Shown here in pieces: positions 5,533 to 9,464 of a stretch of 64,000 bases of DNA. The stretch comes from Acidimicrobiales bacterium (GTDB lineage: Bacteria; Actinomycetota; Acidimicrobiia; Acidimicrobiales; SHLQ01): contig JAHDEJ010000005.1 in assembly GCA_020628865.1 (NCBI GenBank), positions 124,001-188,000 on the forward strand. The letters are read 5' to 3'. A program made the position numbers and the translations under genes. The first letter of the stretch is position 1; every line of letters begins with the position of its first letter. The notes beneath the pieces are model-generated. The model saw only the letters and a program-made list of their open reading frames with translations, did not search any database and was not told the origin of the DNA.

Positions 5533-6113
5533 CCACGCCCGGACGGTCACGATGGCAGGCGTCGGACGGCGCCCGTGGCGACGACTACGACCGGAAGTGG
5601 CGCGAGATGGCGGCGGCCGGCCAGGACCCGCACGGTGAGGTCGCGTTCGTGCAGCGGTACGAGCCGACGCAGGTGCTGGACGCCGGCTGCGGCACTGGCC
5701 GCGTGGCCATCGAGCTGGCTCGGCGGGGCGTGCGGGTCGTCGGATTCGACCTGGACCCGGCGATGCTCGACACCGCTCGTGCGAACGCTCCCGACATTCG
5801 GTGGGAACTGGCCGACGCGTCGACCGTTGCGTTGGGCGAACGGTTCGATCTGATCGTCATGGCCGGCAACGTCATGATCTTCGTGGAACCGGGGATCGAA
5901 GCCGACGTGGTGCGGCGCATGTCCGATCATCTGGAGCCGCAGGGCCGATGGGTCACGGGCTTCAGCCTGCTGCCCGACCGCTACGACCTCGGCACCATGG
6001 ATGCTCAGGCGAGTGCCGTCGGCTTCACGCTCGAAGACCGCTTCGCCACATGGGACGGCGATCGCTTTGTCGACGGAGCCGACTACGCCGTGAGCGTCTA
6101 CCGCCTGGGCTGA
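5529..6113 (+). CDS. Class I SAM-dependent methyltransferase
   Basis: 194 residues from GTG 5529, which overlaps the dnaB stop (GTGA). Motif I is VLDAGCGTGRVAIELARRG (about 52-70), followed by an acidic motif II (VVGFDLDPAML) and motif IV around DLIVMAGNVMIFV. The fold binds S-adenosylmethionine and transfers methyl to an unidentified substrate. The overlap with dnaB suggests coupled translation. A substrate connection to replication cannot be shown from sequence. Confidence 0.85.
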   Translation: MTTPGRSRWQASDGARGDDYDRKWREMAAAGQDPHGEVAFVQRYEPTQVLDAGCGTGRVAIELARRGVRVVGFDLDPAMLDTARANAPDIRWELADASTVALGERFDLIVMAGNVMIFVEPGIEADVVRRMSDHLEPQGRWVTGFSLLPDRYDLGTMDAQASAVGFTLEDRFATWDGDRFVDGADYAVSVYRLG

Positions 6114-6142
6114 CCTTCGAACGGCTGGCCGGCGGCGGGAGT

Positions 6143-6233
6143 ACAAGGGAAGGGCAGGAGCCACGGAGGGTGCCAACACCGAAGTGTTGTCGTGATGCGT
6201 GGAGGGAGTCGCGACTCCCGCCCCGTTCCTTGT
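6143..6233 (+). ncRNA. Predicted structured RNA (three-helix fold) upstream of a small membrane gene
   Basis: Complementary segments fold into a compact structure. P1 pairs ACAAGGGA (6143-6150) with TTCCTTGT (6226-6233) and continues as GGGC (6152-6155) with GCCCC (6220-6224). P2 pairs CCACG (6161-6165) with CGTGG (6198-6202), then, after an internal loop, CAACAC (6174-6179) with GTGTTG (6184-6189) around a CGAA tetraloop. P3 is the 16-nt palindrome 6204-6219 (GGGAGT/ACTCCC). The fold lies 30 nt after the methyltransferase stop and about 100 nt before the small membrane gene. It could be a riboswitch-like leader, but I do not recognise it as a known class. The strand is inferred from the downstream gene. 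Confidence 0.4.
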
Positions 6234-6336
6234 TGCATCCGGTGAGGGCGAATCACCAGACACTCAAAGCATCGGTGAGGCCTTCACGAAGCTTGAGGAC
6301 AATCTGAAGATGTCGCGGAACTGTAGGGTGCACGAG

Positions 6337-6558
6337 ATGGTTCTCGGTCAGACGCTGTTCCTTGGCGACAATCTGCTGCCGCTGCTCACGCTCGCGCTCG
6401 GGGGTGCGTTGGTGGCGGGAAACGCCATGGCACTCGTGCGGCCGCCAGAGCATCGACGCGACGCCGGCGACCTGGAACGGCCGCCGTTGATCCGAACGCT
6501 GGTCTTCATCGCCTTTGGTCTGGTGATGACCGTCTGGGCGCTTGCAACGCTGCTCTGA
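6337..6558 (+). CDS. Small two-helix membrane protein
   Basis: 73 residues from ATG 6337 (AGGGTG 7 nt upstream). An in-frame ATG at 6310 would add nine residues. Two hydrophobic segments, about residues 10-30 (LPLLTLALGGALVAGNAMAL) and 52-72 (TLVFIAFGLVMTVWALATLL), flank a charged loop with RPPEHRRDAGDLERPP. I do not recognise the family. The alternating hydrophobic/charged layout and the structured leader argue that it is real. Confidence 0.6.
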   Translation: MVLGQTLFLGDNLLPLLTLALGGALVAGNAMALVRPPEHRRDAGDLERPPLIRTLVFIAFGLVMTVWALATLL

Positions 6559-6562
6559 CACG

Positions 6563-6678
6563 CTGCGTCGAGATTTTGGGCGACGTCAGCGTCCTTGGCC
6601 GAAAAATGAAGCGCCCCCGGTCGCATGGCGGAACGCGACCGGGGACTTCCCAAGTCGAGTCGGCGGATCTCGACGTGG
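6563..6678. repeat. Nested inverted repeats closing a 116-nt foldable element
   Basis: CTGCGTCGAGAT (6563-6574) pairs with ATCTCGACGTGG (6667-6678), ten Watson-Crick pairs and two G-U. Inside are GACG-tcag-CGTC, CTTGG pairing with CCAAG, and a perfect 10-bp stem CCCCGGTCGC (6615-6624) with GCGACCGGGG (6635-6644). The helices are compatible with one branched structure on either strand. Confidence 0.5.
6600..6644 (-). terminator. Candidate terminator reading leftward (ribH direction)
   Basis: On the minus strand the 10-bp stem CCCCGGTCGC/GCGACCGGGG (6615-6644, 10-nt loop) is followed by GCGCTTCATTTTT, a stem plus U-rich tail. It could end the riboflavin transcript about 310 nt after ribH, or a separate leftward small RNA. 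Confidence 0.5.
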
Positions 6679-9281: not shown

Positions 9282-9286
9282 ACAGT

Positions 9287-9430
9287 CTCCTCTCCCATCC
9301 GGACTCTTACCGTCGGCCCAAGGAATCTCACCTGGTCAGCCGCCCGTGGAGTGCACGGAGGCTCGCGGGCTTGTCGCAATCGCTTGCGCATCACCGCCGG
9401 TCGGGACTTACACCCCTACCCCGAGGAATT
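9287..9430 (-). promoter_or_regulatory. FMN riboswitch (RFN element) controlling ribE-ribBA-ribH
   Basis: Read on the minus strand, the segment carries the conserved RFN blocks in order: TAGGGGTGTAAGTCCCGACC then GGCGGT, AGCCCGCGAGC, GGTGAGATTCC, GGCCGACGGT, and AGTCCGGATGGGAGAGGA. Its 3' end runs into the GAGGAG Shine-Dalgarno of ribE. I see no separate U-tract terminator, so control is probably at translation initiation: FMN binding would hide the ribosome-binding site. Confidence 0.95.
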
Positions 9431-9464
9431 ATTCAGTTGTCCACTCAGGGTGCCCCGGTTTCGA

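Follow-up and report, generated by a model that had tools for sequence, protein, structure and literature searches.

The window, the whole 64,000-nucleotide stretch of DNA analyzed here, carries a structured RNA in the gap beyond dnaB that, judging from the sequence, is encoded on the minus strand at about 6264 to 6143. We consider it probable that this RNA is a stand-alone, trans-acting small RNA (sRNA), transcribed by an alternative sigma factor of the FliA/WhiG family (hereafter sigma B), which pairs with the start of the sigma-B mRNA and lowers its translation. In the proposed mechanism, sigma B would transcribe the minus-strand gene from a flagellar/WhiG-type promoter; the transcript would fold into a hairpin (H1), a long helix (P1), and an inner hairpin (P2), leaving UCGCCC in the H1 loop and CUCCCUCC exposed; these two segments would pair with the sigma-B mRNA at its ribosome-binding site or start codon; and the pairing would reduce sigma-B translation, such that an autoactivating sigma factor limits itself. 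Pairing over the Shine-Dalgarno (SD) sequence or the start codon would block ribosome binding, making repression the likeliest effect, and repression would join autoactivation at the promoter to self-limitation at the mRNA. Trans-acting sRNAs are poorly mapped in Actinomycetota, and a structured family with both a predicted inducer and a predicted target would be directly testable on either side. The relevant features are the following:

6143 to 6264, minus strand: putative sRNA body (covariance model match at 6146–6263 minus; fold z = −5.22)
6292 to 6297, minus strand: predicted −35 element CTCAAG, FliA/WhiG (flagellar) type (motif conserved in 59/70 homologous loci)
6271 to 6275, minus strand: predicted −10 element CCGAT, after a 16-nt spacer (same promoter motif; likeness to the flagellar consensus)
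6235 to 6263, minus strand: hairpin H1, 11 bp (11/11 pairs with two-sided changes in 70 sequences)
6246 to 6252, minus strand: H1 loop UUCGCCC, proposed seed against GGGCGAA of the sigma mRNA (UCGCCC in 62/70 homologues)
6210 to 6223, minus strand: 5' arm of P1, GGGCGGGAGUCGCG (14/14 pairing with 6152–6165)
6201 to 6208, minus strand: conserved unpaired CUCCCUCC, anti-Shine-Dalgarno-like, in the loop enclosed by P1 (conservation in 70 homologues)
6174 to 6189, minus strand: inner hairpin P2 with a cUUCGg tetraloop (6/6 pairs with two-sided changes)
6152 to 6165, minus strand: 3' arm of P1, CGUGGCUCCUGCCC (wobble counts, two-sided changes, pairing in relatives)
6310 to 6558, plus strand: small membrane protein gene, start at 6310 or 6337 (divergent neighbor, not part of the RNA)

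A sequence-only reading had described a three-helix RNA fold on the plus strand at 6143–6233, and folding of that segment reproduces it: the 12-bp outer stem (8+4, with minor bulges), the hairpin with the CGAA loop, and, at 6204–6219, the perfectly palindromic GGGAGTCGCGACTCCC are all present, and the order of dnaB, methyltransferase, gap, and small membrane protein is as described. The plus-strand fold reaches −40.2 kcal/mol with z = −2.41 (4/200 shuffles fold equally well), and a wider plus-strand stretch is no better than chance (z = −0.14). The minus strand, which that reading had passed over, folds far better, with −58.5 kcal/mol and z = −5.22 for 6263–6139 and none of 200 shuffles as good. 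Also missed was the extent of the element, which reaches ~6297 and takes in a second conserved hairpin (6263–6235) and a promoter; DNA similarity shows this gap to be shared by seven further genomes within the genus and by one further family, with conservation up to ~6298. Thus, the claim of a structured RNA stands, backed by compensatory changes, but its strand and helices have to be reassigned to the minus strand.

Several observations place the RNA on the minus strand, namely the wobble pairs, the tetraloop, the z-score, the conserved promoter, and terminator hairpins in some relatives. On this strand, GGGCGGGAGUCGCG pairs at 14 of 14 positions with CGUGGCUCCUGCCC to form P1, several of whose pairs are G-U and would turn into A-C mismatches if read on the plus strand, which favors the minus strand. 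Across 29 homologues, P1 contains 58 minus-strand G-U cells versus five plus-strand ones (A-C on the minus strand), and all helices together contain 102 minus-strand wobble cells versus 20. The CGAA loop, when read on the minus strand, becomes a cUUCGg tetraloop. The palindrome was rejected as a functional hairpin, since P1 on the minus strand gives its left arm the better pairing; in relatives, the palindrome is paired in 79% of cells on the plus strand, versus 95% for the 14-bp minus-strand helix using the same left arm.

Folding of 15 homologues gave one architecture, with H1, P1, and P2 in each. The sequence-only reading had proposed aligning the same gap in relatives, and the compensatory changes it anticipated were found, in the minus-strand helices. 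In an alignment of 70 sequences, each of the 31 modelled pairs varies at both of its positions and 91.6% of cells are standard pairs, compared with at most 51% for control versions in which the pairing was slid; these counts lean towards the model because the alignment was fitted to a covariance model. In a structure-blind alignment of 11 sequences, P1 was paired in 98% of cells, a result that is weak by itself since H1 and P2 were misaligned. Among the 70 homologues, the exposed CUCCCUCC is kept in 51 and its CCCUCC in 62. The transcript would start about 6–8 nt past the −10 element and would be about 120–150 nt long. A clear hairpin followed by a T-run lies just after P1 in some homologous loci (L194, L203, L156, L202, and L191) and is absent in the window; across copies overall, downstream hairpin strength is close to that of shuffles.

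The motif CTCAAG-N15/16-CCGAT lies at a fixed distance, 6–10 nt, upstream of H1. It matches at least 9/11 positions in 59 of 70 loci, a score reached by about 1.5% of shuffles, and is perfect in 30, with no perfect score in 3500 shuffles. The motif resembles the flagellar consensus (−35 TAAA, −10 GCCGATAA), which WhiG shares (PMC8325347). For several copies in family f20, the sequence found there is instead a sigma70-like TTGGCA-N17-GATAAT or similar, and P1 is followed by hairpins and T-runs. The presence of another promoter class at the same position is hard to explain unless minus-strand transcription starts there. Thus, the RNA has a conserved predicted promoter of its own, as expected of a stand-alone bacterial sRNA gene, which argues against a leader of the 73-residue membrane protein.

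Of two covariance models, the one used for genome counts (R2) finds the RNA in 77/397 genomes of Acidimicrobiales, practically always as a single copy; in a phylum sample of 396 genomes, covariance matches were confined to this order. An exception to the single copy is genome G321, where two tandem sRNA copies lie ~0.4 kb apart (L225, 518–638 and 1002–1125).

G000, the genome to which the window belongs, encodes two sigma factors of the FliA/WhiG family. One, sigma A, is a WhiG equivalog (369.6 bits, cut-off 343) whose gene adjoins a tyrosine-recombinase-like ORF. The other, sigma B, scores 200.7 bits versus a subfamily cut-off of 189.6, falls below the WhiG equivalog cut-off (187 vs. 343 bits), and is encoded near gyrA (G000:C54). 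Flagellar (FliA) regulation as such was considered and set aside, as no flagellar context was found for either sigma gene. In the sets compared, the promoter motif occurs upstream of sigma-B genes and not of WhiG genes. In a larger set, CT[CA]AAG-N15/16-CCGA, at 9/10 positions or better, precedes the sigma-B gene in 59/73 RNA-positive and 15/30 RNA-negative genomes, versus 1.2–1.7% of shuffles. Sigma B itself is present in 71/77 RNA-positive versus 31/320 RNA-negative genomes (both, 71; RNA only, six; sigma B only, 31; neither, 289), a comparison that ignores phylogeny. Three of the six RNA-only genomes are incomplete or give weak hits, and the other three (G041, G127, and G207) form one genus that has the RNA and a perfect promoter but, at the threshold applied, no sigma B; the promoter may thus also be read by WhiG or another sigma factor. 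Together, these observations point to a second FliA/WhiG-family sigma factor with autoregulation in Acidimicrobiales, of which no description was found in the open-licence literature. On the larger picture, an order-wide sRNA family and an alternative sigma factor joined in a closed loop whose promoter link was rewired in a sub-clade, our judgment is evenly balanced.

The covariance models and the promoter motif now allow a regulon to be sought. A genome-wide motif search in G000 gave 32 matches versus 75 for a reversed-pattern control, and a second search gave four versus seven; since the matches do not exceed the control, no regulon is claimed. At four loci of this genome (L066, L072, L078, and L163), the motif lies a short distance upstream of ORFs whose products are putative exported or membrane proteins, which are candidate members of a sigma-B regulon.

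The proposed target emerges from the conserved exposed segments. The sigma-B mRNA of G000 has the sequence GAGGGAGCAAGAAACTG-ATGGGCGAAACG, which is complementary to both UCGCCC and CUCCCUCC. In the interval from −35 to +18 around the called start of sigma B, GGGCGA is found in 45/73 RNA-positive versus 4/31 RNA-negative genomes (p = 4e-6), and in 26/46 versus 3/19 when collapsed to genera (p = 0.003); as background, the hexamer occurs in 4% of random tiles, at 14% of SD-filtered ORF starts in the fetched loci, and at 1/12 WhiG starts. The site falls over the start codon of sigma B in the genus of the window and in the SD region in several clades (e.g., GAAGGGCGATA in G013 and G016–G018), so that a Met-Gly-Glu coding constraint is no full explanation. 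Thus, the RNA exposes a conserved putative seed complementary to the start of a target mRNA, as trans-acting sRNAs do. Own-genome partners match over 6.08 nt versus 5.77 nt when permuted (0/200 permutations), where the permutation ignores phylogeny. Co-variation at the one base adjoining the seed was not significant (p = 0.19), nor was the association of promoter type with target site (p = 0.16), and in 28/73 RNA-positive genomes, many in family f20, an exact GGGCGA is missing from the called sigma-B start.

These data also bear on a broader role, in which the C-rich loops would bind the SD regions of numerous mRNAs, from the sigma regulon or from growth genes, the sigma mRNA being one target among them or a coincidence. 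Such a role is the most credible of the alternatives, though we regard it as unlikely. It would account for the strong conservation of the anti-Shine-Dalgarno-like CUCCCUCC, for the match of C-rich loops to many SD sequences, as in the 14% of ORF starts above, and it has a precedent in 6C sRNA, whose C-rich loops act on several mRNAs. However, the enrichment at sigma-B starts is far above both the ORF-start background and the RNA-negative genomes, and the sigma-B site shifts between SD and start codon yet stays complementary.

Known systems offer partial parallels. 6C RNA (RF01066) is an actinobacterial sRNA with exposed C-rich loops suited to SD pairing in several mRNAs; the RNA described here shares its actinobacterial setting and such loops but has another fold, with no RF01066 match at 6143–6264. 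A separate, weak RF01066 match occurs at G000:C113:9028-9107 (L332; 42.3 bits, below the cut-off of 47), and G003 has one above the cut-off. The circuit logic proposed here, with a regulator switching on an sRNA that in turn represses the mRNA of this same regulator, resembles that of the enterobacterial OmrA/OmrB, Hfq-dependent sRNAs that repress their own activator, ompR; there, the activator is a response regulator rather than a sigma factor, and the RNAs are unrelated. Transcription of sRNAs by a FliA-family sigma factor, predicted here, is described for UTR-derived sRNAs of E. coli (PMC10578931) and for FlmR/CJnc170 of Campylobacter jejuni (PMC11187230). No relation to these RNAs in sequence or structure is claimed, and, unlike the E. 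coli examples, the sRNA gene of the window would be stand-alone, with the sigma factor's own mRNA as its proposed target. WhiG, likewise a FliA/WhiG-family sigma factor of Actinomycetota with flagellar-type promoters, is controlled by RsiG, a c-di-GMP-dependent anti-sigma protein (PMC8325347); sigma B is a second paralogue.

The RNA seems to work like known trans-acting sRNAs and, as far as the families tested go, to belong to none of them. The earlier statement that the fold represents no known class holds: a search of the window against Rfam 15 gave a single family match at or above the gathering threshold, an FMN riboswitch at 9283–9432 and none at this RNA; 6100–6345 searched at E up to 10 gave two sub-threshold chance hits only; and 20 homologous loci matched no family. 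The open-licence literature yielded no description of this RNA. The FMN riboswitch (RF00050, minus strand, 95.4 bits) is an ordinary one, upstream of riboflavin genes. An RNA that acts on a protein, for instance by sequestering an RNA-binding protein or, like 6S RNA, RNA polymerase, would be compatible with the large, conserved, asymmetric loop and the long helix around it; the lack of a match to 6S or any other Rfam family and the complementarity of the loop to the mRNA of a linked regulator make this improbable. Least credible by far, despite a gap that precedes the membrane-protein gene and a linkage kept in many genomes, is the cis-regulatory leader or riboswitch of that gene put forward by the sequence-only reading, since wobble pairs favor the minus strand, the promoter on that strand is conserved, with another type in its place in some copies, the searches did not find some copies beside the gene (e.g., in G042, G037, and G089), and many genomes have the membrane protein without the RNA. 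Whereas a riboswitch or leader lies in the 5' UTR, on the strand of the gene it regulates, this RNA points away from the membrane-protein gene and towards the methyltransferase and dnaB, and cannot be the 5' leader of the membrane protein.

The membrane protein itself, of 73–82 residues with two helices, is conserved and was found in 194/297 genomes of the order, without a Pfam match for 6310–6558; in several genomes, its gene directly follows dnaB. At two loci (L048 and L055), CTCAAG-N15-CCGAT beside this gene reads not into the sRNA but into an apparent ORF (MPTPPLAVAHLLRRAGFGG...), which we take to resemble DUF1800. In the window, a strong terminator-like hairpin (14 bp) lies after the small membrane protein gene, at 6646–6613 on the minus strand.
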